A DNA stretch of 42,769 nucleotides from a virus, in IMG/VR virus record IMGVR_UViG_3300010970_000159, positions 1-42,769 of that record; one strand, given 5' to 3'. Position 1 is the stretch's first letter; each line of letters starts with the position of its first letter. The notes beneath the pieces are model-generated. The model saw nothing but the letters and a program-made list of their open reading frames with translations, was not told the origin of the DNA and did no database searches. Positions 1,307-41,898 of this stretch are shown piece after piece. Made by a program: the position numbers and the translations under genes.

Positions 1307-3052
1307 TTACTCGAAAGCATCTTTGTTTAGTTTATAAGCGACATATGCATCCATCATAGCAGATACGTTATCGATTTTTTGGTCTTGTCTTTTTTTTAGC
1401 AGTTTTCTATTACCATTTGTATCTTCTAGCGTTATAGCATTACCCATGGCAAAAGACATTAGTGCTTGGTCAAATATCAACATACGTTCGCCAGATAACG
1501 CTTTAAGTTCGCCCAAAGGTACAGATTCGGTCTTAGCACCTTGAATGACTTTCTCAATACCAAATGGTCCATTTTCGCCTTCCCAGCGATTAATAAATTC
1601 TTTAGCATTATAAGGGTCAAATCCAAAAGATCTTACATCATATTCATTATCGGTTATAAATTTTTCAAGATCCTCATAGACTTCCATCATATCAAGAACT
1701 GTACATTCAAGAACCTGTAGACTTCCTTCTCTTAAGAATTCATCATACTTAATACGCATAGCCCCAGGTAGTTTCATTAAAGTTAAAGAACTTATATAAC
1801 TACGCGTTTTTATTCCGAATGAACCATCAGGTAGAGGAAACATAAATGTGAAAGCACAAAAGTCATCTCCTTGTGAAAGGTCAGCACCAAGTGAACACGG
1901 CATACTCCAAAATTCTCTTTTTCTATGAGGAATGGTTTCATCATAGGTAAAGAAATAGGTATACCCTTCCATTGGAATACCAAAACGTTTAGCCAGAATA
2001 TCGTTTCTAGATGCAGGTGCTTTTTCAGCACGTTCTACGTCGAGATGATAGGTTTCATAACTTACTGTTTTTCCTAAATTAGGATTAGCCTTCAACCATG
2101 TCGATGGATCTGAAACTTCTTCAAGTTCGTCAAGTCGATAATAAAAGATTGAGACGTGAGGGTTAATATAGTCGCCCTTAAGAATGTCCATTAGTTCCAT
2201 TTTGATAGTATCTCCAGAACCGTTTCGCACAGTTCCTTCCGAACTCATAGCAACAATTAAATAGTCATCAAGTTTAGATGCACCCTGTTCAATAGCTCCA
2301 ACAACGTCTTCTCTGATGTCTCCAGACAACCATTCATCAATTGTTGAAAAGAATGGTCTAAGACCTTGAAGTTTATTAATAGACATTGGACGAATTTCAA
2401 GAAGCGAACCTGTAAGAAAGTTTTCAATACCCTTTTTAGTAGATGCTAATTTAAGTCTGTTTGCTTTCGATCCAGTTGTGTTCTGTAAAGAACCCTCTGT
2501 TAGAAATTTGAACAATGGTCCACGTGCACGGGTAATTGCTGTTCTAAATGGAGACATAACTTCTTCAGCCTGTTTCATAGTTGGTGCAGTTGTTATCTGA
2601 TGGGTAGTGGCAGTGTTTACATTTAAAAAGTAACTTTGTAGGGCCATTGCATACATTGATTTTGCAGCACCACGTGCAACAATAAGGTACTGCTTACTCA
2701 CTAGTCTTTTTTGTATCATTTTTCGGACATAGTGTCCTCCATGATTATCAGAAGAAGGTTCATAAACACTTCTTTCAACAAAGTAAAACCAACTAAGAGC
2801 AGCTTCAGCCCATAGTCTAAAACTATCGAGTAGATACAAATCTCCACCATCAGTTAGTGTTAATTCGTTTTCACAATATTTTATAAAACCATCGATTGCT
2901 GTTTCGTCGTAGTAAAAATTTGGATTAGCAATCAAGTCGTCAATTCGGTTCATTTCCATAGCAATTTCCTTGCATACTGGAATTTCTCCACGAAGCACTG
3001 CCTCGCGGAATTCTCCATAATATTTAGGCGTTGCTGTATTTGAAAGACTCAT
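1307..3052 (-). CDS. terL: Terminase large subunit
   Basis: 581 residues, the usual length of the Terminase_1 (HK97/P22-like) family. It is the ATP-driven motor and nuclease that packages DNA into the prohead through the portal. Visible parts are a Walker A-like VARGAAKS at about residue 125, Walker B with catalytic acid in FFSTIDEW (about 232-239), the RNase H-like nuclease Asp in GADLSQGDD (about 388), a second acid in FGFDPYNA and a third in KIDNVSAMMDA near the end. A strong RBS (AAAGGAGG) precedes ATG at 3052. An HNH nuclease and a small-subunit-like gene lie upstream, the common arrangement in cos-type Gram-positive phages. Confidence 0.95.
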   Translation of the reverse strand: MSLSNTATPKYYGEFREAVLRGEIPVCKEIAMEMNRIDDLIANPNFYYDETAIDGFIKYCENELTLTDGGDLYLLDSFRLWAEAALSWFYFVERSVYEPSSDNHGGHYVRKMIQKRLVSKQYLIVARGAAKSMYAMALQSYFLNVNTATTHQITTAPTMKQAEEVMSPFRTAITRARGPLFKFLTEGSLQNTTGSKANRLKLASTKKGIENFLTGSLLEIRPMSINKLQGLRPFFSTIDEWLSGDIREDVVGAIEQGASKLDDYLIVAMSSEGTVRNGSGDTIKMELMDILKGDYINPHVSIFYYRLDELEEVSDPSTWLKANPNLGKTVSYETYHLDVERAEKAPASRNDILAKRFGIPMEGYTYFFTYDETIPHRKREFWSMPCSLGADLSQGDDFCAFTFMFPLPDGSFGIKTRSYISSLTLMKLPGAMRIKYDEFLREGSLQVLECTVLDMMEVYEDLEKFITDNEYDVRSFGFDPYNAKEFINRWEGENGPFGIEKVIQGAKTESVPLGELKALSGERMLIFDQALMSFAMGNAITLEDTNGNRKLLKKRQDQKIDNVSAMMDAYVAYKLNKDAFE

Positions 3053-6688: not shown

Positions 6689-9310
6689 CTATCTACTAAG
6701 TGCATCATTAAGCGTACTTGTAGGAACGCCTAATGCATCAGCTATTTCAGATTGGGTGTAGCCTGCAGCAAGCATGTTCTTTGCACGTGCAAGTTTAGAT
6801 GGAATCATAACAGTTGCGCTACGAGGTGTAGCTAACTTCTTAACGTTGTCTAGATCAGTGTTATCAAGAATGTCAGACAGTCGCTTAGTACTAATAGCAC
6901 CAGACTGAATAGCTTGCCATTCTTTATCTGTTATAATTATTCTTTGTTTCTTAGCGCCTGTTCTTTCACGTGCTTGAGCTAGAGCTTGACTTTCTATCTT
7001 CTTCCTTGTATCGCTATCCATTTGAGGATTAGCTTCCTTCTTTGCACGGGTGATGGCGTTTGCAATAAGCTGGGCTTGTCTTTCAAGGGGCTTATTCTTA
7101 ATAGCAATATTCAATTTAGCAGACAGGGAGGATACTTCAGAAGAGTACGTAATCTTAGCAGATGGTGAATATTCTATAGCCTTAGTACTTGAAGATGTTT
7201 TTCTAGCAGCATTAGCTAATGCTTTTAATCTATTAGCGTGGTCTGCATAAAGAGCTTCTCTAGGTGTACCAGAAGATAACTCATATGCATCTTTTGCTTC
7301 TAGCATTCTAGTTGAAGATGTTCTCTTGAATACCGTTTCACCCTTTTTATTAACATAAGTGGCGTTAGTATTAACAAATACTTTTTCACCAGTGTTCTTA
7401 TTAATAGCGCCTCCAAGAGCAGCCGGTCTGGCTTTTCTATCTAGAGGACGGACTTCACGTTTAGCCAAAGAAATAATAGTTGTTGCTCCACCAGTCTTGC
7501 TGCCTTGATACTTGGCTTTTAATTCAGTAATACCATGATCTTTTTCAGACTGCTTCCAGTTGAGTCCCTTTTTTTCAGCATCAATAACAACCATTGAGTG
7601 TCTAACAGCTCTAACAATTTCAGTTGTTGTAGCACCCTTGATAGTCATATCAGTAATTAAGTTGGAAATTTTACCCATTTGAATTTGGGTATTTGCCATC
7701 TTTTTCATTCCATCGTAGCCTCGATACGAAGTGCGAGGGTCAAAGTTTTTCAACGCATCCAAAGCTGGAGTAGTTTTTACTTTTCTATTATTATTAGGAA
7801 TAACTAACACTGTATCGCCATCAAAGTCAGCACCAGAAAGTTGTTCTGCTACTTTAGGATGAATACCGACTGCGTCTATTGCTCGTCCAAGAATTGATTT
7901 AGCTTTTGCATTTCTATTATTAACTGTTAGTTCAGGAATCTCAAATATTCCACCATGAGGGTGGCGAATAAGAACTACTTTCTCACCATCTCTATATTGA
8001 GGAGCATAGATTTCTGTAGTCTTCAAAGATGGTATTGGTAATATAACATGAGAGGCAGTTCTAGGTAATCCCATAGCTTTTAGTTTAACAGCTGAGGAGT
8101 CCATGTCATCAGCAAATGATTCTAATAGTTTCTTTCTAACTGTAGGGTTAGTAAGAGCCATGATTTCATCGAACTCTGCTTTTTTAGATGCAAACGTTAA
8201 TCCCAATTGATCTTTTATTAACTGAGGACTTTGTTTTGAAAGCATTTGAGAAGATAAAGACCTCGACCATTGATACCAGTCACCTTCTTCATTAATAATA
8301 TTCAATGCTCCACGTTGTCCACCAGGTTTAATAGCTGCGCCAAATGGGTTATCTGGATCATCTTTCATTACTTTCAAAGAGTCAAGCTTATTGGGAGCTT
8401 CGGTCTTTGTTTTGTTTGTATTGAAACGAATATCGATGCCTTTTGGAAGATCATTAGCGTAAACAGCCATGCCTTTAAGATAGTGACTACCATCAACAGC
8501 AATACGAACCTGTGCATATCTAGCTTTTCCAAGAGAAAGGTCACTTACGCCAGGACGTAATTCAATAATACCATCTTTAGAAGCACCGCCATTTTCGGCA
8601 TAGTTTATCTCAAGTCGTTTAGAACTAACATTAGTAGGTGCTCTTAGACCAAGAAAACTACGACCATTATCTTCTGACTTCATGTCAAAAGGTTTGATTC
8701 TATCCTGATTTTTATAAACATCGGTATAGGTTGTACCTTTTGGAACAAGAACCTTAACGCTTGTAAACTGATTTTTTGAACCAAGTTGTGGCACTTTAAC
8801 ATACATGACTTGATAACCTTCATCTTTTAGCATAGCAACTGCTGTGCCTAGACGAACTTTACTAATTCCTGCATAGTTTTCTGTACCCGCACCAATATCC
8901 AAATAAGTTGTTTCGTTAACTTTTTCTTTTAATTGGTTAGCAATAGTGGTTGTGATGTCTCGCTTTTCTTTAGCGCCTGGTGCCAATAAAGAACGAACTG
9001 ATGATTCATTCAAACCCATTCTTTGACCGATAGCTACGTTTGAATATCCTTTAGCTTTCAGTTTCTCAGCTTGTGATATTTGAGAGCTGCGAACTTCATC
9101 TTTTGCACGTGAGCGTGCGTTTCTTAATTCTGTTGTTGAAATATCGAAAGACTTGGCTATGTCTAGTTCCGACATTCCCTGTTTTCTAAGTTCATCGACG
9201 GTTGCTAGAAATGTGGTATTTCTTTGATTTGGGGTTTTACCTGAGCCCCAAGGATATCGTCCAGACTTTCTAAGAATACCATAATGCATTAACTCGTCGT
9301 CTTTGATCAT
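6689..9310 (-). CDS. Putative single-subunit DFDGD RNA polymerase with HYG start and flanking HTH segments
   Basis: 873 residues. GIHPKVAEQLSGADFDGD at 482-499 lines up with the beta-prime subunit signature (xLHPLVCxxFNADFDGD), whose three Asp residues hold the catalytic Mg. HPHGGIFEIP at 450-459 lies before it, as expected for the double-psi barrel. YonO of phage SPbeta and QDE-1-like enzymes are single-chain members of this superfamily. The N-terminus has LMHYGILRKSGRYPWGSG (7-24), then two helix-turn-helix-like segments (about 36-70 and 81-112). A third (MLAAGYTQSEIADALG) is at about 846-861. ATG 9310 overlaps the upstream nuclease gene by ATGA. It probably transcribes phage genes. Packaging in the virion is inferred from the HYG start and not shown. 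Confidence 0.8.
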   Translation of the reverse strand: MIKDDELMHYGILRKSGRYPWGSGKTPNQRNTTFLATVDELRKQGMSELDIAKSFDISTTELRNARSRAKDEVRSSQISQAEKLKAKGYSNVAIGQRMGLNESSVRSLLAPGAKEKRDITTTIANQLKEKVNETTYLDIGAGTENYAGISKVRLGTAVAMLKDEGYQVMYVKVPQLGSKNQFTSVKVLVPKGTTYTDVYKNQDRIKPFDMKSEDNGRSFLGLRAPTNVSSKRLEINYAENGGASKDGIIELRPGVSDLSLGKARYAQVRIAVDGSHYLKGMAVYANDLPKGIDIRFNTNKTKTEAPNKLDSLKVMKDDPDNPFGAAIKPGGQRGALNIINEEGDWYQWSRSLSSQMLSKQSPQLIKDQLGLTFASKKAEFDEIMALTNPTVRKKLLESFADDMDSSAVKLKAMGLPRTASHVILPIPSLKTTEIYAPQYRDGEKVVLIRHPHGGIFEIPELTVNNRNAKAKSILGRAIDAVGIHPKVAEQLSGADFDGDTVLVIPNNNRKVKTTPALDALKNFDPRTSYRGYDGMKKMANTQIQMGKISNLITDMTIKGATTTEIVRAVRHSMVVIDAEKKGLNWKQSEKDHGITELKAKYQGSKTGGATTIISLAKREVRPLDRKARPAALGGAINKNTGEKVFVNTNATYVNKKGETVFKRTSSTRMLEAKDAYELSSGTPREALYADHANRLKALANAARKTSSSTKAIEYSPSAKITYSSEVSSLSAKLNIAIKNKPLERQAQLIANAITRAKKEANPQMDSDTRKKIESQALAQARERTGAKKQRIIITDKEWQAIQSGAISTKRLSDILDNTDLDNVKKLATPRSATVMIPSKLARAKNMLAAGYTQSEIADALGVPTSTLNDALSR

Positions 9311-9867
9311 GATGAGGCCTCTGCTTTCAATATCTGAATTTGCTTATCGAATGTTACAATTTTATCCATAATATGAACAATGTCATCATCTTCAGGAATA
9401 TATTCTACAATGTCATCATTTTGATATATGCGAAGTTCAATGTCTAATTCATATGGCTTATAACCATATTCTAAACAAAACATAGCAGCATATACTTCTA
9501 ATTGTTTCATGGATGTAGGAGTAACTCCTGTTTTCAAATCATGGATTCGAAGTGTTTTGTTTCTGAAAGAAATAGCATCTGCTGTGCCAAAACAATTAAT
9601 TGAATAAAAAAGCATCTGCTCTGGTATCATTCGATAACCGATAGCGTCGTTTACATACATGTTAATTGTCTTTTGTGTTCTAGGTAGTTTGATTCCTAGT
9701 TTAATAGCTTGTGATGCAAATTCGTGGAGTTGTGTGCCTTTGAGTGCGGCGAGCGCCGTTTTATAAGAGTTGTCTAGTTTCTCATTTGAGTAATTAACCC
9801 AATGATATTTACTAGCACTCAGAAAAGCGTGCTTACCTTCAAATGCGGAATGTGTGTTGAAGATCAT
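9307..9867 (-). CDS. PD-(D/E)XK nuclease, RecB/Cas4-like
   Basis: 186 residues. The core reads GTADAISFRN, then IHDLKTG and KQLEVYAAMF. This is the Asp ... (D/E)XK ... QxxxY order of RecB/Cas4-type nucleases, with DLK as the metal-binding acid-x-Lys. An HEFAS motif near residue 48 supplies the N-terminal His/Glu region. No four-cysteine iron-sulfur cluster is visible, so it differs from true Cas4. It overlaps the preceding nuclease gene by 29 nt and the RNA polymerase-like gene by 4 nt, indicating one operon. Expected role: 5' or 3' end resection during phage DNA replication or recombination. Confidence 0.82.
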   Translation of the reverse strand: MIFNTHSAFEGKHAFLSASKYHWVNYSNEKLDNSYKTALAALKGTQLHEFASQAIKLGIKLPRTQKTINMYVNDAIGYRMIPEQMLFYSINCFGTADAISFRNKTLRIHDLKTGVTPTSMKQLEVYAAMFCLEYGYKPYELDIELRIYQNDDIVEYIPEDDDIVHIMDKIVTFDKQIQILKAEASS

Positions 9868-10129
9868 CTAAAACTTCCTCTTTATTCTCTGGGCATATGA
9901 ATCTAGCAAAAGACATATCATTTAAAATATCAACATAGTATTCCTGATTAGGTCTTACTGGTGAATTTAATGATGCTTTAACTTCGAGCATTGCCCATTT
10001 GTTTTCGTAAAGGATTAAAATATCAGGAACGCCTTGCATGTATGATGCATCGTTCTTCAAAACAATACAACCATCAAAAATATTTTTTAGTTCTTTGATT
10101 AGTTGTGATTGAAATCTACTTTCTGACAT
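9839..10129 (-). CDS. VRR-NUC domain nuclease
   Basis: 96 residues, a stand-alone VRR-NUC domain. Visible are ESRFQSQLIKEL at the start, GVPDILIL (catalytic Asp), WAMLEVKAS (ExK) and the trailing SPVRPNQEYYVDIL. Such small nucleases act on branched or flapped DNA in phage replication modules. RBS AAAGGAG precedes ATG 10129. It is the first gene after the 380-base noncoding region and is probably expressed with the RecB-like nuclease and the RNA polymerase-like gene. Confidence 0.88.
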   Translation of the reverse strand: MSESRFQSQLIKELKNIFDGCIVLKNDASYMQGVPDILILYENKWAMLEVKASLNSPVRPNQEYYVDILNDMSFARFICPENKEEVLDDLQHTFRI

Positions 10130-10508: not shown

Positions 10509-11738
10509 TTAGTGGTTGTCTGAATATATGTCCCATACTTGGAAATCTTTCTTATTTCTTAACGATTTAAGGATGGCTTTATCGATCATAGAATCGGTTT
10601 GTAGAATATAATAGTATAGTTCTACGAACTTTGTATTTAGACGATCGATTCGTCCCTTAGCCTGTTCATTAATTTTGTATGAATAATTGAGACTATAAAA
10701 TACAGTAGCGTCCGTATCCGTACAGTTCCATCCTTCAGAACCAGCAGTGTATTGTACTAGATATATCCACTCATCTGTTTCTGGGATCTCTTCATGCTTG
10801 TGACCATTCCACTCGGCCACTGGTATGTTGAGAGCTCCTTGTAGCATTCTAAGTACGTCCAACTCGTAATCGAAATTATAAAACACAATAACTTTCTTGT
10901 GTTGCATTACAATATCTATGATGGCTTCGAATCTTGATGGGTCAGAATTTACGAGTTTGCGCATTACTAGAAAAAGCTCAGCAATATCACGGATAGGACG
11001 ATCTTCGTAGATATGCCACCTATCTTCCACAATCTTTTTAAAAATTTCTTCATCATAATTAACAAACACATCCTTAATATTTCTCGTGGTATGACGCTCA
11101 TAAGGCATTTCAATTAGAACGTCCTTACGATGCTTTAATAGTTTTCCCTGTTCTATATATCTATCTATCTTTGGAAACTTTGAAAAGTTATTATAGACTA
11201 CATGGTTCCTTATGAACTCGGTTCGGTTTTTGTAAAACCCATTAGCTACAAAGATTGGGACATAATCCATCCATGTATCACCAGGCGTTGCAGATAAAAC
11301 AATCCACTCATTGTTCTTGGCTATTTTAAGAAATGCTTTAACCCATGCACCAGAACCGACTAAACGTTGCTCGTCAAGGATAAAAAAAGCATTTGTTATA
11401 TCAGCATATTTGTCAATGTTATTCCAAGAATCAACAAAGATTTGTACTCCATTTATACTAAGAGCCCTTGTGTTAGTAAGGATAAAGGGAGCGCACTCGC
11501 CTTCCCATTCTTTCTTATCTCGCTTCTTAGCTGTGGTAATTATATACAAATCTTTTGGATTTTTCATTTCAGTTGTTTCACCAACGCCATCGACTTTTAT
11601 TGTGCCATTGCATACCTTAGTGTAGTAATATCCGATGGCGGTTCTAGACTTACCAGTACCTACACCACCTTTCAAGACGCAACCATTTTTCATTTTGTCT
11701 ATAGCCTCAAGTTGATGAGTTGCTAATTTAATTGTCAA
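10509..11738 (-). CDS. SF2 DEAD-like DNA helicase
   Basis: 409 residues from TTG 11738, chosen because a strong SD (GAGGAGGTG) sits just before it. The frame is open further upstream but would run deep into the HNH gene. Superfamily 2 motifs: Walker A GGVGTGKSRTA, motif II ILDEQR, motif III LSATPGD, and the C-terminal TAGSEGWN and QAKGRIDR (motifs V and VI with the Arg finger). This compact type is common in phage replication modules and unwinds or remodels DNA using ATP. It overlaps the HNH gene by 11 nt. No primase or nuclease domain is attached. Confidence 0.88.
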   Translation of the reverse strand: MTIKLATHQLEAIDKMKNGCVLKGGVGTGKSRTAIGYYYTKVCNGTIKVDGVGETTEMKNPKDLYIITTAKKRDKKEWEGECAPFILTNTRALSINGVQIFVDSWNNIDKYADITNAFFILDEQRLVGSGAWVKAFLKIAKNNEWIVLSATPGDTWMDYVPIFVANGFYKNRTEFIRNHVVYNNFSKFPKIDRYIEQGKLLKHRKDVLIEMPYERHTTRNIKDVFVNYDEEIFKKIVEDRWHIYEDRPIRDIAELFLVMRKLVNSDPSRFEAIIDIVMQHKKVIVFYNFDYELDVLRMLQGALNIPVAEWNGHKHEEIPETDEWIYLVQYTAGSEGWNCTDTDATVFYSLNYSYKINEQAKGRIDRLNTKFVELYYYILQTDSMIDKAILKSLRNKKDFQVWDIYSDNH

Positions 11739-12222
11739 AGAACACCTCCTCATCGTAATACTCAAATGTATATCCCATATGGGTCTTGTATTTGCCACGC
11801 AAACAAGCATAAATATTAGACGCATGTCCGTTGATATATCTAGCAGCTGTGTATGCGTTTAGGAAAACCTCGCCTGTTTCAATAATTCTAACACGACGAC
11901 CTTTAACATGTACTGGTTCATAGTCAACATCATTAGATCGTCTACCACGTAGTCTTAGATTAGACACGTGATTGTTCTTTTTATTTCCATCGAGATGTTG
12001 AACATGCATGCCCGTTCTAAAGCCACCAAGAAATGTGTAAGCTACTAATTGATGGATATAAAATTCTTTTCGAATACCCTCATTAAATAAAATTACATGG
12101 GAGTACCCTCTAGAATTGGCTCTAGGCTTAAGAGACCTACTAAATCTTATGTTTACAACTTCTCCATAATTACTTATGACGTAGTTAGGGAATGCGACTA
12201 TCTCAGCCCATACTTCGTCCAT
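11728..12222 (-). CDS. HNH homing endonuclease with NUMOD4 and NUMOD1-like domains
   Basis: 164 residues. The N-terminal VWAEIVAFPNYVISNYGEV is a NUMOD4 DNA-binding motif. HVQHLDGNKKNNHVSNLRL at about 85-103 is the HNH core. The C-terminal part (GEVFLNAYTAARYINGHASN ... YTFEY) matches NUMOD1-like DNA-recognition helices. Such free-standing HNH genes spread between phages by cutting an allele that lacks them. It lies between a small gene and the helicase it overlaps by 11 nt, so helicase translation may depend on it. RBS AAAGGAG. Confidence 0.9.
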   Translation of the reverse strand: MDEVWAEIVAFPNYVISNYGEVVNIRFSRSLKPRANSRGYSHVILFNEGIRKEFYIHQLVAYTFLGGFRTGMHVQHLDGNKKNNHVSNLRLRGRRSNDVDYEPVHVKGRRVRIIETGEVFLNAYTAARYINGHASNIYACLRGKYKTHMGYTFEYYDEEVFFDN

Positions 12223-12576: not shown

Positions 12577-12685
12577 CTCTTTTTGCCATTTCTTCCTTGT
12601 AGAAACTCTTAGACGTTACCGCTATTGCAGCACCAATAATCATGGATATTGCAGTAGATATTGCACCAACAACATACTCAATCAT
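12533..12685 (-). CDS. Small single-span membrane protein
   Basis: 50 residues from ATG 12685, which overlaps the stop of the ssDNA-binding-type gene and has AAGGA ten bases upstream. A longer open frame exists, but it would lie inside that gene. One hydrophobic segment ([20 protein letters not shown]) is followed by a basic tail. Function unknown. It is one of many small membrane proteins in this genome. Confidence 0.62.
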
Positions 12686-13184
12686 TAGCGTCAAATCCTT
12701 CTTCAGGAATAACCGCACTTGCTGCACTATCTGGGACATCGCCGTACTTACGCTCTAGGTCATCTTCTTCAATTGTAACATAGATGGACTGTAGATAAGC
12801 CTTAACGCCAGTTTTACCATTTACTTCCCATTCATAGGGACGAATGATAACGTCCGAAGTAATGACCTCGGCCCAATCGAGAATATCAACCATGTCTTCA
12901 TCAAGTGAGGTCTTTCCTCGACTTGTGATCATAACTACACGAGGTGGACGACCCTTATAGTTGACAGCCACTTGTAGATATCCTTGCGGAGTGTCATCAA
13001 TCTCTCGAGGATTTAGATAGCGAACATTCCAACCATCTTGTTCCATTTGCTTAGCGATATCATCAGGAAGCATAACACAGAAGTTTCGATCTCCTTCACG
13101 ATTGTACTTTCCTTCTTTACCGCTAAAGTTTCTAAAAGCAATTCTTACATCTTCAAGTGTTGCGTTCATCATTTTTTCTGGCAT
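12678..13184 (-). CDS. Probable single-stranded DNA-binding protein
   Basis: 168 residues, RBS AAGGAGA. The sequence [22 protein letters not shown], then [33 protein letters not shown], and an acidic tail with DVPDSA, is a conserved phage family annotated in actinophages as ssDNA-binding protein. An OB-like beta pattern with aromatic residues and an acidic C-terminus fits that role. It is encoded just downstream of the polymerase fusion, where an SSB would be needed to coat unwound strands. Confidence 0.72.
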
Positions 13185-13374: not shown

Positions 13375-16300
13375 CTATCCAGTGAACCATTCGACGTCAC
13401 CATATTTAGATATATTATCAACCGCGTCATTAACTAGAGAATCAAAATATCTCATGTCAACATCGCTTTGTTTATTAAAAGCCTGAACCATTTCTGACTC
13501 AAGCCAACGATACCCCTTGGTTCCAACTGCAGCATAGTACTTGCCATCTTTTTCACGAACTAGCAAGCCCCCACCACAATCTTCTTTAATAGGAGTAAAG
13601 CGCCCAGCTTTCCCTACAAAATGCATAGGATTAGCAAGCGCCATTGGTGTATCAACACCGTTCATATCGATATATAACGCAGTAGTAACTGTTTTAGTTT
13701 CACAAAGATCATCGAATTCGACAGGCTCTTTACTAAACAAGGTTTTAAATACATAAGGATGCTGAAATTGAGCTCCGACAGCTTCCCAATATCCAGGTTT
13801 CTTTCCGTCCTTAGCCTTTGCTACATATACAGCATCGTTCACAAGACAGAACTTATCATAAGTAACCTCGTGTTCGAACTCATATCCATAGTTGTTCCCG
13901 AATTCCATAACTAAGTCTATAATTTTAGAATCAGCATCTGGAATCTTAATAGAGTCAGTCTTAATGTGCACAACCTTATAGCCCGCTTCCTGAACCATTT
14001 GCTTCAGGTCAATCATAAACAAGGCTCCTCGTTTTGCAACGATGTTGTCGATGTTTCTAGGATCTCTAAATGCGTTTGGAAATTTAGCTGAGGTTAGACC
14101 GTATACGATATTAATAACAATCTTTAGAGCATAAGACAGAGCTTCGGCATCATCGGTATTTTCAAGATAAGGGACTAGAATTCCACCAAGCATAGTTTTA
14201 GCTGTTTCATAATCCTTACGCTTGATTGCGATACGAGCGGCTTTCAATGCACTAAAGTTCTTTGTATAGGGGCCAAACATATCAAGTGCTTCAATGGATG
14301 TTGGATGCATGGACGCAACGTCAAGAACTGCTACGTTTGTATACATTCCTGGTTCAGAATAAACATAACCACCTTCACCAGTCACTTCACCCTTATAAGT
14401 ACTAACGCCAATATCATACTTGTAACCAGGGAACATCTCTGATAAATCTGTATACACAAATTCATCTTGTGGGTTTCTATTGGTTCCAAATACAATTTTA
14501 GCTGTGTGTTGCTGGGTGGTTGAGTTTACAGAAAGTCCACTCAACTTAGCTAATATTTGACGAGCTACAAAGTCTTGGATTCGAGCCTTGTGCACTACCT
14601 CTGTTGAAATAACATCGTTATCACAGTATTCAGCTACAAGTTGCCACTTCTCTTCAGGAACTTCTTGATCCCAAGGAAGACCTAATTCTTGGTGGTGGAT
14701 ACCCAATTCGATTTGGAATTTCTTTAGTCCTTGCTTTTTGGAACTATAGTCATAAATATCAACATATGAAAGATCATACGCCTCACCAAATAAAGCACTT
14801 GGCGAATTAGAAATAATCTTTTGACTTAACTTATATAGTTGCTCGTTTGTGTATCCCATGTATCTTCCATAAAGAATATGATTGTCGTACCGTCTACAGT
14901 TAAATCCAACAAGCTTGAACTGTAGAAGTTTTTCGACTTCTTGTGGCGAAGGATTTATCATTCGAACAACAGTTTCACTATCTTCGTATTTCCAGCAAAC
15001 AATAAATAAGTTTGGGAAAACCTCAACGTCAAAAAATACAAGACGTTCGTCCTTGGAAGCGATCTCTATTGGATCTGTTTCTTCGGACTTGAAGTGCATT
15101 TTAGTTAGAAGTTTGATACAGTATTGCGCTTGGTTACTACTGTTGTTAGCGAATGCCAAAATCTTTGGTTTTAGATCGCTTACGTTATATTTAACACCAG
15201 AACTATACGCGTCCTCAAGAATCTTATATATAAAATCAACACTTGGTTTTGTACCTGGATGAATTTCTTTATTTAGATTTCTTTCAATAAGTTCACGTAT
15301 AGACTTCTCGCTTTTAACTGCCTCGGTATTTATCATCTTTTTCTCCTTAAGCGGTAATCCACTACTAATTGTAGTAACTGGAATATTGTTGCATTTAGAT
15401 AAACGTCTACGTAAAGAAGAATCTCCACTGAATACCTTTACCTCTATACCATCAGAATATACTCGACTGAGCTCTGTTGGATCTCCATCATAAATATAAT
15501 GTAGGTGTACACCAGAACCACTTTTGCTAAACTCAGCATATGTTTTTGGCCAGACAGATGCCGCTTCTAGATTTAACTCTAGGGACTTCTCTCCCAGTTT
15601 ATCCTTTAAATCAAAATCAATTACGATATGATTCAATGGAGGCTTAACATAATGTAGTTTACTTGTATCAATATCAGACAACGTAGTTGTTACTTCAGCC
15701 CATCGTTTAATAGGGGTTTCGCTTGTTGTTGCGTATTGAGCTGGTTGGTTTGCACATTCAGTATCAAATATAGACTCGAAGTCATCCATATTAAGAGGAA
15801 CGGGTTCTTCATTTTTTACTTGAACACTCAAATGGTCAGTAACAAAACCCGAATACCAACTTCTAACCCTAACGCCATCGACAATAGCCCGCTCTTCAAA
15901 ATTATGAAAATAGTTCTTAATTTCTTCACGAAACTTATAACGTGGAAGTTTAAAATCAATAAGTGACGTATCGCAGAATTGCTTATACATTTCATAAGCT
16001 TGATTAAGAGTTACGCCATCTTGCGATTTGAATACATCATAGTTATCTTCAATAAAGTTAAAGAACACATCGGTTTGTAACATCATTTCAATTGGTCGGT
16101 AACTAGAGTAGTAGTCTTTTCCCAACTCTCTATACACTTCTAGACAATGATGTGCAATTGCTCCGAGTTCAAAATCAATTTGAGAATATAGAGCTTGGTA
16201 TTTTCTAGGTGTTACTCTATTACCAGATGGTTGTACGTCAATAAGACGTCTAATGATTCCGGATTTAGCATCTGTAATTTTTACTGGTTTGTTCGTACCC

Positions 16301-17118
16301 ATAAACAAGAATGAATTAATTCTAGACATGTAGCTAGGCTTATATTTTTCATTCATTGTCATTTCTTCATGAGAAATAATCGAGTTTAGTTTTGTGTTAT
16401 CTTCGATACGTGACAAATCTCCATCGTGTTGGATAGCAACAAGGGGATTGGATTTGAAAACTTCTGTGGAGAAGGAATTAGAATTTGAAGTGAGTGCCTT
16501 TGCTTCAAAGGTTGTGTAGTAACCAGCGAATAGTTTCTGAATAATATTGAGATAAGTAGATTTTCCAGCACCAGCTGCGCCGTATAAGACAATGAACTTT
16601 TGAATGTGTTTGGCATCTCCTGCGATGATTGATCCAACGGCCCATTCCAACTTACGTCGTTCCGATGCTTCGTACAACGTACCGATAAGTTCATCGTATG
16701 CCGAGATATCTCCAGCTTGTAATGGATAAGACACTTTTCTACTGACATAATCTGTTTTCCTAACGTTAGTATTACTAAATGTGAGATTCTCATCTAACTG
16801 ATGAGACGAGTCGGATAGGTGTCCAACATAATTTCTAAATTGCAACCAAGCATTACTGCTAAAGTCACTGAGTGCTTTTACTTGTACGATTCCTATATTC
16901 TTAGATTTTACTTCTTCTGCATAATTATATAATTCTTCGTCGATAAGCCTTTGAACATCATATTCGTCCGTAGACCATAAATTAGCTTTGTCGTCCCATA
17001 TGGCATAGAAAGACTTTCCGCGAACCATTAAGTCCTTAGAGCGACAAACTTTAAAATCTGGATAGACTTCAATTATTCCGTTTTTACCGGTGCGTTCTTT
17101 GATCTTATAAAAGTCCAT
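13375..17118 (-). CDS. SF3 helicase - AEP primase - family B DNA polymerase fusion
   Basis: 1247 residues from ATG 17118 (RBS GAAAGGA; a TTG one codon earlier is weaker). Part 1, an SF3 helicase: Walker A YGAAGAGKST (about 180-189), acidic AIQHDGDLS (229-237), sensor FLFMGTNKP (271-279), arginine finger IIRRLID (289-295). Part 2, an archaeo-eukaryotic-primase-like module: motif I VIDFD (500-504), motif II SGSGVHLHY (534-542), motif III region IEVKVFSG (559-566). Part 3, a family B polymerase: Exo I FFDVEV (696-701), Exo II NCRRYD (741-746), Exo III YCDND (832-836), motif A DVASMHP (934-940), motif B KIVINIVYG (1000-1008), motif C KTDS (1054-1057). Motif C has Lys for the first Asp of DTDS; the second Asp is kept. 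It should unwind, prime, copy and proofread phage DNA. Confidence 0.88.
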   Translation of the reverse strand: MDFYKIKERTGKNGIIEVYPDFKVCRSKDLMVRGKSFYAIWDDKANLWSTDEYDVQRLIDEELYNYAEEVKSKNIGIVQVKALSDFSSNAWLQFRNYVGHLSDSSHQLDENLTFSNTNVRKTDYVSRKVSYPLQAGDISAYDELIGTLYEASERRKLEWAVGSIIAGDAKHIQKFIVLYGAAGAGKSTYLNIIQKLFAGYYTTFEAKALTSNSNSFSTEVFKSNPLVAIQHDGDLSRIEDNTKLNSIISHEEMTMNEKYKPSYMSRINSFLFMGTNKPVKITDAKSGIIRRLIDVQPSGNRVTPRKYQALYSQIDFELGAIAHHCLEVYRELGKDYYSSYRPIEMMLQTDVFFNFIEDNYDVFKSQDGVTLNQAYEMYKQFCDTSLIDFKLPRYKFREEIKNYFHNFEERAIVDGVRVRSWYSGFVTDHLSVQVKNEEPVPLNMDDFESIFDTECANQPAQYATTSETPIKRWAEVTTTLSDIDTSKLHYVKPPLNHIVIDFDLKDKLGEKSLELNLEAASVWPKTYAEFSKSGSGVHLHYIYDGDPTELSRVYSDGIEVKVFSGDSSLRRRLSKCNNIPVTTISSGLPLKEKKMINTEAVKSEKSIRELIERNLNKEIHPGTKPSVDFIYKILEDAYSSGVKYNVSDLKPKILAFANNSSNQAQYCIKLLTKMHFKSEETDPIEIASKDERLVFFDVEVFPNLFIVCWKYEDSETVVRMINPSPQEVEKLLQFKLVGFNCRRYDNHILYGRYMGYTNEQLYKLSQKIISNSPSALFGEAYDLSYVDIYDYSSKKQGLKKFQIELGIHHQELGLPWDQEVPEEKWQLVAEYCDNDVISTEVVHKARIQDFVARQILAKLSGLSVNSTTQQHTAKIVFGTNRNPQDEFVYTDLSEMFPGYKYDIGVSTYKGEVTGEGGYVYSEPGMYTNVAVLDVASMHPTSIEALDMFGPYTKNFSALKAARIAIKRKDYETAKTMLGGILVPYLENTDDAEALSYALKIVINIVYGLTSAKFPNAFRDPRNIDNIVAKRGALFMIDLKQMVQEAGYKVVHIKTDSIKIPDADSKIIDLVMEFGNNYGYEFEHEVTYDKFCLVNDAVYVAKAKDGKKPGYWEAVGAQFQHPYVFKTLFSKEPVEFDDLCETKTVTTALYIDMNGVDTPMALANPMHFVGKAGRFTPIKEDCGGGLLVREKDGKYYAAVGTKGYRWLESEMVQAFNKQSDVDMRYFDSLVNDAVDNISKYGDVEWFTG

Positions 17119-17137
17119 CAACTTTTCCTTTCATGCT

Positions 17138-17662
17138 CTAAGATATGTAATTATTTTCTAACAAGTATGCAGACATTTGATACCAAATTTCAACTTTTCG
17201 TTGATCCTCATTTGGCTTAGTCAATGGAAATAACCCACCACGACCACTCTTACTATATGTTCGATCGTTTACTTTAGTAAGAACCTCGTCAATATGTCTT
17301 TCTACTGAACGATCATAATATTCGTCCTTATATTGTGTAAGATTTAAGTTTTGTAGAATTTCCCAAAACCAAATATCTGCATTGTACTCTGTATCGTAAG
17401 ATAATCTAAGAGAAATTCCTAGAATGAGTTCAAACATAGAACAATAATTATTAGGCCAGTGCCAATATGTTTTCATTTTAAACTCATCTAGAAATTCAAT
17501 TCTTAGCATCTTACCATCTTCTGCTCGATTGTCGTCATTTGGAACGAACCAATTAAAGCTCGTTTCGTATAACTGCAAACAAAGAGAATTATGTTTTTCA
17601 GCTCCAACTCGCTTTAAAAGCCAATTAAAATATTGACTTTCTAAACCGAGTGACGATATCAA
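17138..17662 (-). CDS. Conserved phage protein ending in a GGLFPL/EIWYQM motif
   Basis: 174 residues from TTG 17662, whose SD (GAGGTGAGGA) lies at the end of the previous gene; start and stop overlap. The pattern LYETSFNWFVPNDDNRAEDG ... CSMFELILGISLR ... IWFWEILQNL ... GRGGLFPLTKP ... QRKVEIWYQM is well conserved in Gram-positive phages and always near replication genes. Many Trp and acidic residues suggest a soluble helical protein. No catalytic motif is recognised; I give no function. Confidence 0.8.
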   Translation of the reverse strand: MISSLGLESQYFNWLLKRVGAEKHNSLCLQLYETSFNWFVPNDDNRAEDGKMLRIEFLDEFKMKTYWHWPNNYCSMFELILGISLRLSYDTEYNADIWFWEILQNLNLTQYKDEYYDRSVERHIDEVLTKVNDRTYSKSGRGGLFPLTKPNEDQRKVEIWYQMSAYLLENNYIS

Positions 17663-18291
17663 TCATCCTCACCTCGCATGCGCATGACTTCCTTATCTTC
17701 ACGAATACCCATAACCGTTTCAGAATATGAACGAGTATCAAGAAGGATCTCAAAGTCAGCTGCTAGACGTTCATTTCGAACATAAACGACTTTATTATCA
17801 TTAGACTTAACGCCAAATTTAGTAAGTGCGTCGGTTCCCACAGTCGCTTCAATATCTGGAATAACTTGTTCACGATCGTCGCAAAGAACATCATCTATTT
17901 CGAAGTAACTAACTGTATTTTTGTCGTAATCTTCACGGTCATTCATGTACTCATCAATAGAAATAACATATGGCTCGTCGGCATTTCGTTCTTCTTCGTA
18001 CGGTTCAACCACAATGGCCTCCTCGTTTTCAACTTCGTCTTCGCCGCTGTATTCAGAAATAATTTCCTCGTACTTAGGCTGTTCAACCAACTTTTCTTCT
18101 GGCTTGATAAGCTGTGCATACTCGCCTTCTTTTCTAAGAAGCTTATAGTAATCTTTTACTTCTGCAATTTGCAGGTTTAGATCAGCTTCAAAGCGTTGTT
18201 CCAGCATTTTCTTAGTAACGAAAAATCCAGCGCCACCACCAATAACTAAACCACTAGTTAGAAGCAGCGTACTCTTAATTGCGTTGTTCAT
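17659..18291 (-). CDS. Membrane-anchored acidic phage protein
   Basis: 210 residues, RBS AAAGGAG. Residues 7-26 (STLLLTSGLVIGGGAGFFVT) form one N-terminal membrane segment, followed by KKMLEQRFEADL and a coiled-coil-like region. A long acidic linker follows, and then a conserved C-terminal domain (PYVISIDEYMND ... YFEIDDVLCD ... FGVKSNDNKVVYVRNERLAADFEI). The family is frequent in Gram-positive phages beside DUF6353-type genes. The cytosolic C-terminal part probably binds a partner at the membrane. Function unknown. Confidence 0.8.
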   Translation of the reverse strand: MNNAIKSTLLLTSGLVIGGGAGFFVTKKMLEQRFEADLNLQIAEVKDYYKLLRKEGEYAQLIKPEEKLVEQPKYEEIISEYSGEDEVENEEAIVVEPYEEERNADEPYVISIDEYMNDREDYDKNTVSYFEIDDVLCDDREQVIPDIEATVGTDALTKFGVKSNDNKVVYVRNERLAADFEILLDTRSYSETVMGIREDKEVMRMRGEDD

Positions 18292-18294
18292 CTT

Positions 18295-18564
18295 TTACTC
18301 CTTTTTTGTAATTTCTCCAGCGATTGCCATGTAGGCAGCGCCGTCTATAAATGAATCAATGTGGTCAGGGGTTTCAACTAGTCTTGCTAATTTAACTCCA
18401 ACCATGCATAGAGCGACCTGAGAAGGGGTAACCTCATATTCTAAAATCACAGACCAAATATCTGCAATTCTTTTGTGATTAATATAGGGCTCGCCATAAC
18501 TCTTTCGTCGCTCACCTGTAGTAAGCTCTGAAGCAGATTTAAGAATATCTTGTGTGTTTACCAT
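18295..18564 (-). CDS. DUF6378-like phage protein
   Basis: 89 residues from ATG 18564 (AAGGCGAG nine bases upstream); a TTG six codons earlier is less likely. The sequence KSYGEPYINHKRIADIWSVIL ... TPSQVALCMVGVKLARLVETPDHIDSFIDGAAYMAIAGE is the signature of a family found in phages of actinobacteria and other hosts. The conserved His, Asp and Arg residues resemble helical nucleotide-pyrophosphatase (MazG/dUTPase-like) folds, but I cannot confirm activity from sequence alone. It overlaps the preceding 47-residue gene by 7 nt. Confidence 0.8.
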   Translation of the reverse strand: MVNTQDILKSASELTTGERRKSYGEPYINHKRIADIWSVILEYEVTPSQVALCMVGVKLARLVETPDHIDSFIDGAAYMAIAGEITKKE

Positions 18565-18701
18565 GGCTCTCGCCTTATGCAATTAACAATTTCAATATTA
18601 AATGTTTCTTTAATCTGAGCGTCAGCTTCTACTTGATCGGGAGCATAGAATATAACTTCTACGCCGTTGTATAAATAGATGTACTTATAAAATATAGCCA
18701 T
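18558..18701 (-). CDS. Small phage protein, 47 residues
   Basis: ATG 18701 lies two bases from the stop of the upstream membrane-protein gene, and the stop overlaps the next start (CCATGGTAA), a tight coupled arrangement. The sequence starts MAIFYKYIYLYNGVEVIFY and continues APDQVEADAQIKETFNIEIV. This is a short beta-alpha pattern typical of small phage proteins that have a VEADAQIKE-like helix. The RBS is weak. Function unknown. Confidence 0.6.
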   Translation of the reverse strand: MAIFYKYIYLYNGVEVIFYAPDQVEADAQIKETFNIEIVNCIRREPW

Positions 18702-18702
18702 T

Positions 18703-19605
18703 TTAGATCTTATCGTAGATTATGCCATCAACGTTAAAATCTAGAAGGATTGAAGATTCTAACCCATTAACAAACATGTGGCTTCCTTGACTATCAAAAT
18801 TATAAATTCCAAAGTCTACAAAGTTATCTCCCTCTTTAGAAATAACCCAACCAACAACCTGGCCAGCCTGTGTTCGAGGAACGCCAATCATATCATAAAC
18901 CTCGTTTAGAAATACGTGCCCACGAGACTTAAGCAAGTCGTTAGCATAGTTCTGCTGAGCCTTAAGAAATAGCAAGTTGTATTCTGGCGTTTTGCTCCAG
19001 TTAGAAGATAACTCATCAAAGAATTTGGCATATGGGGAGTAACCGATTGGATCAAGCGTTGTTACTTTCTTTGTCTTACCGTTCTCGTCCGTAATCTCTG
19101 ATACTTGACTCCCAAGACGAAGATCTTGTTCTTTCTTTTCGCCAATCAAATCGATTACTCGCTTACGATATTCTACAAAGCTAGTTTCTAAAGCTTTATA
19201 TGCCGCAGCAATGGCTACAGTTCGGCGATGCATAATTCCATGAGCTGCAATGATACAAGCAATAGAACTAATACCAAGTGTAATTGTTGGGCCGTAGATC
19301 TTAGATACTTCAACTGCGCCATGCACATAAATCTTAGCTACTGCTTTGGTATGTTCTTTCTTGTTATATGAACCAGTATCGAGAATTTCTTGTTCTGCGC
19401 TATAGTTAGCATTTGCTTTCTCTTCTCGAATTTGCTCAACGATTGGGTGCAACTTAAGCGTTGCTCGGCTAGCAAGAACTGTAGTTCCTACCATGCCAGC
19501 AATACCAACCGTTGTTAGAATCTCTGGACTATATTTCTTCAGAACGAGTCCGCTACGACCAAGTAAATTTGCACCTGAGTTTTTTAGAGTGCTTAGATTA
19601 AACAT
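18703..19605 (-). CDS. DUF6353-like membrane protein, copy 1
   Basis: 300 residues. Two hydrophobic segments are visible: EILTTVGIAGMVGTTVLASR (about 29-48) and a longer one at about 98-120 containing GISSIACIIAAHGIMHRR. Then come the conserved EYRKRVIDLIGEKKEQDLR, YNDLLK-like helices, and a C-terminal domain with NEVYDMIGVPRTQAGQVVGW and DFNVDGIIYDKI. It is a paralogue of the 253-residue protein at 22721-23482. The family recurs in Gram-positive phages; its role is unknown, perhaps membrane remodelling or superinfection exclusion. RBS AGAAAGG. Confidence 0.82.
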   Translation of the reverse strand: MFNLSTLKNSGANLLGRSGLVLKKYSPEILTTVGIAGMVGTTVLASRATLKLHPIVEQIREEKANANYSAEQEILDTGSYNKKEHTKAVAKIYVHGAVEVSKIYGPTITLGISSIACIIAAHGIMHRRTVAIAAAYKALETSFVEYRKRVIDLIGEKKEQDLRLGSQVSEITDENGKTKKVTTLDPIGYSPYAKFFDELSSNWSKTPEYNLLFLKAQQNYANDLLKSRGHVFLNEVYDMIGVPRTQAGQVVGWVISKEGDNFVDFGIYNFDSQGSHMFVNGLESSILLDFNVDGIIYDKI

Positions 19606-38699: not shown

Positions 38700-40667
38700 C
38701 TAAGCGTTACGGGTGAATACCCAGTCAGCGTCAGTGTTGTGAGGGAACGAGTAACCAGTAGCAGCAACTGCTACGATCTCAATGCTCGCACCGGCTGCAA
38801 TTGCAGTCTGTGCACCCGAGCTTAGAGTTGCGAGGGTATCGCCGTTCTTGTAAACAACACCAGTCTGGTTAGGAATGGTTACAACACCAGTGGTGGTGTT
38901 GAAGGTTGGGATCTGAGGAGTAACCGAAGTACTACCGGTCTCACGAGTAATAACAAGTGCAGACTTAGGCTTGGTTAGAGTTCCAGACATACGACCTTCA
39001 ATTAGGTACTTGTACTGGTTGTAGTCGATGTCGAAGTCGTCAAACATCGATACGTTTCCACCATTATCCGCACCAACAGTGTAGTCAGCTAGGTTAACAA
39101 TGATACCGATTAGGTCTGGAACAGTCTCCATAACCTCAACAGCAACGATAGAGCTTACGCGAAGAGCCGAAGCAAGTTCCTGCTCAGTAGCGTAAAGACG
39201 ACGACCCATCTTGTCCTTGATAAGGATTAGATCGGTTAGAATCGACTCAGTGGTGTAGAATACTGGGGTTCCAGTACCCTTGTACGCGGTACGTGCACGT
39301 AGAATTGCTTCTACGATTGCGTCACCACTTAGGTTAGCTGCAACCGATACAGGGTGTGCATAGAATGCATCATCCCAAGCGATTGGACGAATGTTAGACT
39401 CGTTGATCTTGTCTTCGCTGTCAACCTCACGGCCATCACCAATAAGGATTGCGCGTGCAATTTCCTCATCTAGCATTAGACGCATTTCAGCCTTTAGCCA
39501 AGAAACAACATCTAGGTCAGTGATGTCAATCATGTCATCACGGTCTAGCTTCTGCTTCTTATAAATGGTGGTAGGGGTAGTAACTCGACGCGAAACTGCG
39601 AAGAATTCTTCCTTCTTAAGGTTGCCCTTGATGTAACCCTTAGCACGAGCTTCATCGGCAGTGATATCCGCAGACATCGACTTGATACGCGAGAATGGTG
39701 ACTTACGTACACCGTTGATAACGCTAGCAACCCAGTCAGTACGACGCTTTACGAAGTCTGGGGTATTCGTGATGTTCTTTGCATCTGGGAACAAGAAATC
39801 GATGTTCTCGATTCCATAAGTTACGGTGTGTGCAAGGAAAGCTTCCTTGAACGAACCGGTCTTCTGAGCATCAGCAATGATAGACTGAAGATCAGAGTGA
39901 GAAAGCGTAGCCTTCTCGTTAGCCGAGCTGTTCTGCTCGAAGACGTTGCGGGTCATAGTTGAACCTTCCTGGTCATGTTTGATAATTTCGTCATTTTCTT
40001 CTTCGTCGGACTGGGCCATTGAGTCAGAACCTGACTGGTTTAGAGCTTCGCCGATCATAAAATAAACGACGTTTTGCTGTTCTTCAGACATGCTGTCGAA
40101 TACATCCTTGACAGTCATTTCTGGAGCAGCAGCAGCATGTTCAACTACAGCATCGGCTGCAGCTTTGGTTTCTGCCACGTTTTCTCCTTCGTTAGGTTTG
40201 ATATCCTGGTGCTCAAGATTGAGTCCAGTATAGATAATTGCTTCGTCCTCGAGTTCAGTGTAAGAATCGTTATGTGCGAGATTTACATTGTCGATAAACG
40301 CACCGGGATTAGCTCCAGCGAGAACAAGGCTTACTTCCTTGATCGCACCGTGCAAAACATCGGCACCTTTTTGGACTAGTTTATTTGCGTAGATTGAGAG
40401 TGCCTCGATATCGCCGTGCTTAACGAGACCCTTAGCGATTGCAGCCTGAGGCTGGTCGTTAAAGAATCCATAAGCATAGACTCCATCTTCGCGATTCTCA
40501 AGATATGCGTGTCCTAGGACGTTTTCAGGATCATTGTGCATGTGCTGCCAAACAAGAGGTACTTTCATACCATCCTGTTCTTTAAATGCATGCGCAAGAA
40601 TCGTTCGACCATCAGAACAACGCAAACCAGCTTTTGATGCGTAACCACTAAAGTCAGCTGCTTCCAT
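38700..40667 (-). CDS. Fused prohead protease, scaffold and HK97-type major capsid protein
   Basis: 655 residues. Residues 1-130 form the S78-type prohead protease: catalytic His in LVWQHMHNDPENVLGHAY (about 39-55), Ser113 in AIKEVSLVLAGANPG. Residues 130-240 are acidic and helical, like a scaffold (delta) domain. Residues 250-580 are HK97-fold capsid (RRVTTPTTIYKKQKLDRDDM, LDEEIARAILIGDGRE, TGTPVFYTTESILTD). Residues 583-655 are an Ig-like add-on domain like that of the tail-tube protein. An internal ATG at residue 238 is preceded by AGGAAGG seven bases upstream, so capsid may also be made alone. It overlaps the portal gene by 14 nt. Confidence 0.92.
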   Translation of the reverse strand: MEAADFSGYASKAGLRCSDGRTILAHAFKEQDGMKVPLVWQHMHNDPENVLGHAYLENREDGVYAYGFFNDQPQAAIAKGLVKHGDIEALSIYANKLVQKGADVLHGAIKEVSLVLAGANPGAFIDNVNLAHNDSYTELEDEAIIYTGLNLEHQDIKPNEGENVAETKAAADAVVEHAAAAPEMTVKDVFDSMSEEQQNVVYFMIGEALNQSGSDSMAQSDEEENDEIIKHDQEGSTMTRNVFEQNSSANEKATLSHSDLQSIIADAQKTGSFKEAFLAHTVTYGIENIDFLFPDAKNITNTPDFVKRRTDWVASVINGVRKSPFSRIKSMSADITADEARAKGYIKGNLKKEEFFAVSRRVTTPTTIYKKQKLDRDDMIDITDLDVVSWLKAEMRLMLDEEIARAILIGDGREVDSEDKINESNIRPIAWDDAFYAHPVSVAANLSGDAIVEAILRARTAYKGTGTPVFYTTESILTDLILIKDKMGRRLYATEQELASALRVSSIVAVEVMETVPDLIGIIVNLADYTVGADNGGNVSMFDDFDIDYNQYKYLIEGRMSGTLTKPKSALVITRETGSTSVTPQIPTFNTTTGVVTIPNQTGVVYKNGDTLATLSSGAQTAIAAGASIEIVAVAATGYSFPHNTDADWVFTRNA

Positions 40668-41898
40668 TTTGAAGTCCTTTCTCTGCTAGTGGTGGTTGTG
40701 TTTGTTGATTTGGATCTGGAACATTGCTATTCCTAAGTTCATCGGCTTTTGGATCTGTCGATGGCTTAAATCCAATAATTGAACGAATTTCGTTTGAGGA
40801 CAGAATTTCGTTTCGAGTGAACTTGTCTGCAATTTCAGCGATTGATCCGACAGGAACGAGTTCGAATGGATCCCTAAAGAATTCAATCGACTGATACTGA
40901 GATCTAGCAGTTTTGGACAAGAACGTTCTCTTCATACCTTGAGTAATTGCTACAAGAATTGGCTTGATTGTTCGACTATGATAATTAAGCATTGTCTTTT
41001 CATCAGCAGTTCCAGCAATTACTTCTTCTGTTAGACCTAACTGGCCATACAGCATGTTCGTAAGGTATTCTACCTGCTTAAGAAGGTTGTTCTCGGCAGG
41101 TCTATTAAGTTGTGTGATCTTTTCAGTGCCATCAGTATAAGCAATGCCATACTGGGACCCTTTTAACTGTAGCTCAATGTCTTTACGACGAGCATCAGCC
41201 TGTTGCTTTCTTGCTTCGGACTTAATAACATAAGGTAACTGAATAATCAAATCAAGTTTTCCGGAACTAGATTGTTCATCTACAGAGTCTAACATATTTA
41301 GTTTTCTAATAAGACGCTGTAGTGTGGAGTTTGGTTCATTCATTACAGAATAAAGTGGATTCTCAATAATTGATACTAGAGATTTTGGAAGAACTATGTC
41401 TTCCTTCTTTCCCGTATTATCATTATATACTCGAACTCCAACATGTTTTGGATACCACATAATGATTTCTCCAACTCGAATAGACTTTATGTCATATCCG
41501 GCAGAGTTAATTGGATTGATCGAAGTTTCTACTGGTACTAAAGCAATTGTACCTTTATCTAGCAACGACATAGCTATATCTTGTTTAAATGCTTGCGCTG
41601 ACTGATCAATATTAGCTTCAAGAGTTAAACAAGTATTAAGACCGCTATCAATGCTAGAAATGAAACGATTATTTTCATCTATTCTAACATGACGAATGTC
41701 TACTGACGAAACGTCAATACCAATTCTTGTATATATAGAAGAAATAATAGAACGTTCATTAGAACTATTTAATCGTGTTCTATCCGGTCTAAGTCCGTAA
41801 CTTCCACCAACATCAAGATACGATAGTTGTTTTTGAGATTGATCGTTTGTGAATGCGTTCCATGCATGTCGCAATCGACCGCCAAAAGATGTTGGCAT
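40654..41898 (-). CDS. Portal protein (HK97 gp3-like)
   Basis: 414 residues, RBS AAGGATG. Start GGRLRHAWNAFTNDQ, then SIISSIYTRIGIDVSSVDIR, ENPLYSVMNEPNSTLQRLI, EQVEYLTNMLYGQLGLTEEV-type core and FFRDPFELVPVGSIAEIADK are typical of the portal family. It forms the dodecameric ring at one capsid vertex through which DNA enters and leaves. A Pro/Gln-rich tail (PDPNQQTQPPLAEKG) follows. Position just before the protease-capsid gene is canonical. Confidence 0.92.
   Translation of the reverse strand: MPTSFGGRLRHAWNAFTNDQSQKQLSYLDVGGSYGLRPDRTRLNSSNERSIISSIYTRIGIDVSSVDIRHVRIDENNRFISSIDSGLNTCLTLEANIDQSAQAFKQDIAMSLLDKGTIALVPVETSINPINSAGYDIKSIRVGEIIMWYPKHVGVRVYNDNTGKKEDIVLPKSLVSIIENPLYSVMNEPNSTLQRLIRKLNMLDSVDEQSSSGKLDLIIQLPYVIKSEARKQQADARRKDIELQLKGSQYGIAYTDGTEKITQLNRPAENNLLKQVEYLTNMLYGQLGLTEEVIAGTADEKTMLNYHSRTIKPILVAITQGMKRTFLSKTARSQYQSIEFFRDPFELVPVGSIAEIADKFTRNEILSSNEIRSIIGFKPSTDPKADELRNSNVPDPNQQTQPPLAEKGLQNGSS

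Follow-up and report, generated by a model that had tools for sequence, protein, structure and literature searches.

The window, by which we mean the whole 42,769-nucleotide stretch analysed here, spans positions 1-42,769 of IMG/VR record IMGVR_UViG_3300010970_000159, a metagenomic virus. We detected a single long open reading frame on its minus strand at 13375-17121, an interval in which the plus strand carries many stops. The first codon is TTG at 17121, directly followed by ATG at 17118, and because AAAGGA precedes the ATG, the likelier product is the 1247-residue protein that starts there and stops at 13375. This agrees with the original prediction of a single 1247-residue chain, to which we add the strand; as in that prediction, residue 1 is the TTG codon. 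The coding sequence at 13375-17118 encodes a predicted helicase-primase-polymerase replicase, and the whole chain falls within one PHROG family, phrog_4210 'DNA polymerase' (E=0, with residues 2-1247 aligned to 1-1285 of 1304). It also aligns over 1234 residues, at 41.2% identity and with the same domain order, with GP55 of Lactococcus phage 1706 (1317 aa, compared with 1247 aa here). GP55 was purified by Zhang et al. in 2025 as a 'four-in-one replicase' with helicase, RNA-primase, exonuclease and polymerase activities; it is dimeric and its family B polymerase (PolB) proofreads (PMC12205980). For comparison we fetched 80 metagenomic virus loci, and conservation was counted across 82 homologues, 80 of which cover the columns of polymerase motifs A and C.

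The replicase gene is part of a replication cluster, and all genes described here lie on the minus strand. Downstream of it we found genes for an ssDNA-binding/annealing protein (SSB; 12678-13184; PF24083 E=9.3e-70, phrog_4787), which is present in 81 other fetched loci including phage 1706, a second helicase of SF2 type (10509-11825; phrog_62 E=4.6e-64), a VRR-NUC-like endonuclease (9839-10129; phrog_93) and an exonuclease (9307-9867; phrog_3953 E=1.1e-79). Downstream of its own replicase gene, phage 1706 has homologues of the SSB, helicase, VRR-NUC and exonuclease genes (orf66-69, the last three being orf67, orf68 and orf69, respectively), but in the window the interval between the SSB and helicase genes also holds a NUMOD4/HNH homing endonuclease gene (11728-12222). 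Its homologue in the nearest fetched locus, L002, is 72% identical, and similar genes occur in nine fetched loci overall. Adjoining the cluster, 6689-9310 encodes an 873-residue protein that falls in phrog_4291 'RNA-dependent RNA polymerase' (E=0). Besides a DFDGD motif it has HTH-like repeats close to each terminus; this homologue of two-barrel (QDE-1/YonO-like) RNA polymerases has counterparts in 50 fetched loci. Upstream of the replicase lies a small-protein cassette (17138-19605) comprising phrog_4678, phrog_4695 and a 300-residue protein, the latter two with apparent membrane segments, and homologues of the cassette were seen in 66-77 fetched loci. The terminase large subunit (1307-3052) and portal (40654-41898) genes sit at opposite ends of the contig, which gives it the look of a near-complete genome that is circularly permuted, though no end repeats are recorded.

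The N-terminal half of the replicase opens with a family-conserved pre-helicase domain (residues 2-138; 16708-17118), which has a well-predicted alpha/beta fold and invariant D3, F4, P21, D30, F38 and W49. An SF3 helicase domain with a helical/wing extension follows (residues 140-430; 15832-16704), and was the part recognised by Pfam in the single window sequence (DUF5906, E=1e-11). A profile built from 51 sequences matched the SaPI5 primase-helicase structure 7ola over residues 76-429 (E=1.4e-5). AlphaFold2 models were made in two pieces, and with the first (residues 1-690, pLDDT 84.9) Foldseek again placed 7ola best (E=5.7e-13), along with the SF3 primase-helicases MPXV E5, AsfvPrimPol and NrS-1. 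The Walker A motif GAAGAGKST (residues 181-189; 16555-16581), sensor-1 N277 and the arginines R291/R292 are conserved in the alignment. K187 of Walker A corresponds to GP55 K189, whose replacement by alanine abolishes unwinding (PMC12205980). The Walker B region reads QHDGD in the window protein and DADSD in GP55. The GP55 helicase is powered by UTP/dTTP, and its RNA priming prefers CCAAC sites and GTP (PMC12205980); given the different Walker B region and only 41% identity, the nucleotide preference and priming site of the window protein may differ from these.

After the helicase, residues 478-602 (15316-15690) are assigned as an AEP (PriS-like) primase catalytic domain. Taken alone, this 125-residue piece matches the AEP primase families phrog_3022 (E=4.7e-4) and phrog_695, and the same piece from relatives matches more strongly (L081 against phrog_695, E=1.7e-6); used as a query against isolate phages, it returned 253 records, all covering the AEP piece and essentially the same set as found with the whole chain, with no AEP domain outside the fusion seen in the collection searched. 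Motif I is D-F-D at residues 502-504 (15610-15618; 82/82 conserved), with D504 equivalent to GP55 D509, and GP55-D509A is primase-dead (PMC12205980). Motif II is SGSGVHLHY at residues 534-542 (15496-15522), in which H539 is kept in 82/82 and H541 in 81/82. The assignment is based on these profile matches, the invariant catalytic residues and the biochemistry of GP55, rather than on a PDB fold match. Between the AEP domain and the exonuclease, the original prediction had missed an alpha-helical domain (aHD; residues 603-682; 15076-15315), a putative accessory to priming with four helices in the AlphaFold2 model (605-616, 624-641, 648-659 and 665-673). The aHD was newly defined in GP55, where it is required for priming (PMC12205980); GP55 Y655 corresponds to Y645 (conserved in 77/82, with Phe in the other five) and GP55 F667 to F657 (82/82). 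A vestigial AEP domain that merely aids extension, leaving a helicase-polymerase, would fit the weak matches to outside AEP families (for the window piece, E is about 5e-4) and the absence of any Pfam AEP match. This seems extremely unlikely, however, since D502, D504 and H539 are invariant in all 82 homologues and the aHD residues needed for GP55 priming are conserved in the window protein. The central region is best read as a primase, predicted to be active.

The C-terminal portion comprises a 3'-5' exonuclease domain (residues 690-850; 14572-15054) and a family B polymerase domain (residues 851-1248; 13378-14571). The former has motifs ExoI (D698/E700, equivalent to GP55 D712/E714), ExoII (around D746) and ExoIII (Y832/D836), matches phrog_1252 (E=9.5e-45) and is spanned by the Foldseek PolB matches; its predicted proofreading residues are intact. 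In the polymerase domain, motif A is DVASMHPTS (residues 934-942; 14296-14322; 80/80), with D934 equivalent to GP55 D949, the site of the polymerase-dead mutant GP55-D949A (PMC12205980), and motif B is found at K1000...YG1008. The C-terminal profile matched E. coli Pol II (E=2.2e-7) and Pol alpha in the PDB, and with the second model (residues 470-1248, pLDDT 86.5) Foldseek found the 9N polymerase best (E=7.2e-16), along with E. coli Pol II and Pol alpha. Pfam did not match PolB in the single window sequence and matched DNA_pol_B weakly in 8 of 51 relatives. With Pfam weak or absent for both the AEP and PolB parts, their assignment draws on PHROGs, the PDB profile, the predicted fold and GP55. 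The profile and structure checks that the original prediction had proposed thus came out in its favour for the helicase and polymerase parts, whose folds are supported by the predicted structures and PDB fold searches. Its motifs (Walker A and SF3, DFD...SGxGxHxH, three exonuclease motifs, and polymerase motifs A, B and C) were all recovered, and judging by their key residues, which are invariant or nearly so across the 82 homologues, and by the match of the whole chain to phrog_4210 at E=0, the set is not a product of chance.

Motif C deviates from the canonical form: it reads HIKTDSIKI (residues 1052-1060; 13942-13968), with Lys1054 replacing the first Asp of DTDS. The original prediction had treated this lysine as an added point of interest in the sequence, but K1054, T1055, D1056, S1057 and K1059 are invariant in all 80 family sequences covering the column, GP55 included (VHVKTDSFKL), and the lysine is a family hallmark rather than an anomaly of the window sequence. 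Single-domain sister polymerases carry Asn at that position (SNTDAH in Enterococcus phage AL3, ENTDGA in crAss-like phage phi14:2; L084 and L085), which indicates that loss of the first Asp reaches beyond the fusion, while Lys marks the family. D934 and D1056 would be the remaining catalytic acids. The departure from DTDS could point to an active site that is degenerate, non-replicative or of translesion type, with another polymerase acting as the replicase; the first Asp is likewise missing from archaeal PolB2, a weak translesion enzyme (PMC7544198). We reject this as very unlikely: GP55 has the identical deviation and is highly active, replicating 7.2-kb M13 DNA in 0.2 min, which shows that polymerisation tolerates the lysine. 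Elsewhere motifs A, B and C show no variation, the exonuclease residues are preserved, and no second DNA polymerase was seen among the part of the window ORFs that was scanned. We therefore retain the reading of a functional replicative active site, as predicted from GP55.

The same chain is widespread. We found it at 80% or more of its length in 252 isolate-phage records, mostly annotated 'DNA primase/polymerase', from phages of Arthrobacter, Gordonia, Streptomyces, Rhodococcus, Curtobacterium, Microbacterium, Lactococcus and others, and unbroken in 80 other viral contigs, a few of them cut by contig ends. Large chains on metagenome contigs may be artefacts, and sequencing or assembly error could in principle have linked what were two or three genes for primase-helicase and polymerase, but the replicase ORF shows no sign of this. 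With dozens of independent contigs and isolate genomes carrying the same uninterrupted chain as a single ORF, and a GP55 homologue that was expressed as a single protein, an artefactual fusion, which the original prediction had named as grounds for abandoning it, is excluded, its probability being close to nil. The fused chain is accordingly taken as genuine.

In a tree confined to this family, the window is nested inside as sister to L002, the nearest fetched metagenomic locus (84% identical), and 1706 GP55 sits on a long branch. When the replication region was compared with isolate phages by megablast, the sole match was 193 bp in Lactococcus phage P118, and hence there is no close isolate. 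A genome-contig search returned four MAG matches, three on uncultured Bacilli contigs and one, a full-length homologue (L091, contig SOJY01000270.1), in a MAG labelled Candidatus Bathyarchaeum. The latter contig is probably a misbinned phage; an archaeal virus with this type of replicase, if true, would be noteworthy. In Streptomyces phage Scarif, the full-length replicase is preceded, three genes upstream, by a shortened second copy of the replicase helicase region (L086:1483-1926).

Fusions of this kind have a name. HelPrimPolB was introduced in 2020 by Kazlauskas et al., citing an earlier description, for PolB with N-terminal SF3 helicase and PrimPol domains, and its deviant motif C was noted then (PMC7544198). 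The window protein shares with this group, part of the EpsilonN-like clade of family B polymerases, an N-terminal SF3 helicase matching DUF5906 and the SaPI5, D5/E5 and NrS-1 helicases, an AEP domain with DxD and sxH motifs between helicase and polymerase, an aHD after it, a C-terminal PolB with an intact 3'-5' exonuclease, and the deviant motif C; no feature excludes membership. Full-length homologues at 60-64% identity include the actinobacteriophage 'DNA primase/polymerase' proteins of phrog_4210 from Arthrobacter phage Mudcat, Gordonia phage Secretariat and Rhodococcus phage ReqiPepy6 (gp072), the last of whose records itself mentions a primase-type N-terminal domain and PolB; these phages are isolates some 36-40% divergent from the window, which is a metagenomic virus record. 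The primase-first AEP-SF3 helicases (NrS-1 polymerase, poxvirus D5/E5, AsfvPrimPol and SaPI5 primase-helicase) share the SF3 fold and the AEP domain, but there the AEP precedes the helicase and no PolB is fused, whereas in the window chain the AEP (478-602) lies C-terminal to the helicase (140-430), as the original prediction had pointed out, and we did not adopt that identity. Nor is the protein a stand-alone PolB of crAss-like or Efquatrovirus type: these are homologous in the Exo-Pol part alone (AL3 E=4e-19) and likewise lack the first Asp (NTDA or NTDG), but have no fused helicase or primase and carry Asn instead of Lys.

We suggest, with a probability of about 95%, that the product of this gene serves a siphovirus-like tailed phage as its replicative DNA polymerase and is a HelPrimPolB orthologous to 1706 GP55, its activity being predicted. 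By analogy with GP55, the N-terminal SF3 helicase would open the duplex, the AEP and aHD would make short RNA primers, and the C-terminal PolB would extend them, with strand displacement aided by the helicase and proofreading by the exonuclease; the separate SSB, second helicase and nucleases from neighbouring genes may assist. The original prediction of a chain that unwinds, primes, copies and proofreads matches the activities of the GP55 homologue (PMC12205980), and its domain order of SF3 helicase, AEP, exonuclease and PolB was correct apart from the aHD. Its claim of rarity did not hold, as the group is named and, beyond the isolate records, GP55 has more than 1000 homologues in nr (PMC12205980).

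The window protein is an ordinary additional member of a known, characterised family, and since the four-in-one replicase is already published and common in phages, the find itself adds little. Its value lies in the test of conservation: every GP55 residue that we checked and that had been shown to be needed is kept at only 41% identity. The missing Asp of motif C, with Lys fixed in this family and Asn in the single-domain sisters, poses a clear and testable question about its role. One speculative and rather improbable answer is that KTDS(I/V)K represents a distinct catalytic solution, in which Lys1054, perhaps with Lys1059, takes over the part of the lost Asp, for example in handling short RNA primers from the fused primase, and that the window clade with QHDGD may unwind with nucleotides other than those used by GP55. 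More broadly, the conservation seen here supports carrying the functions of GP55 over to the many actinobacteriophage genes annotated 'DNA primase/polymerase'.
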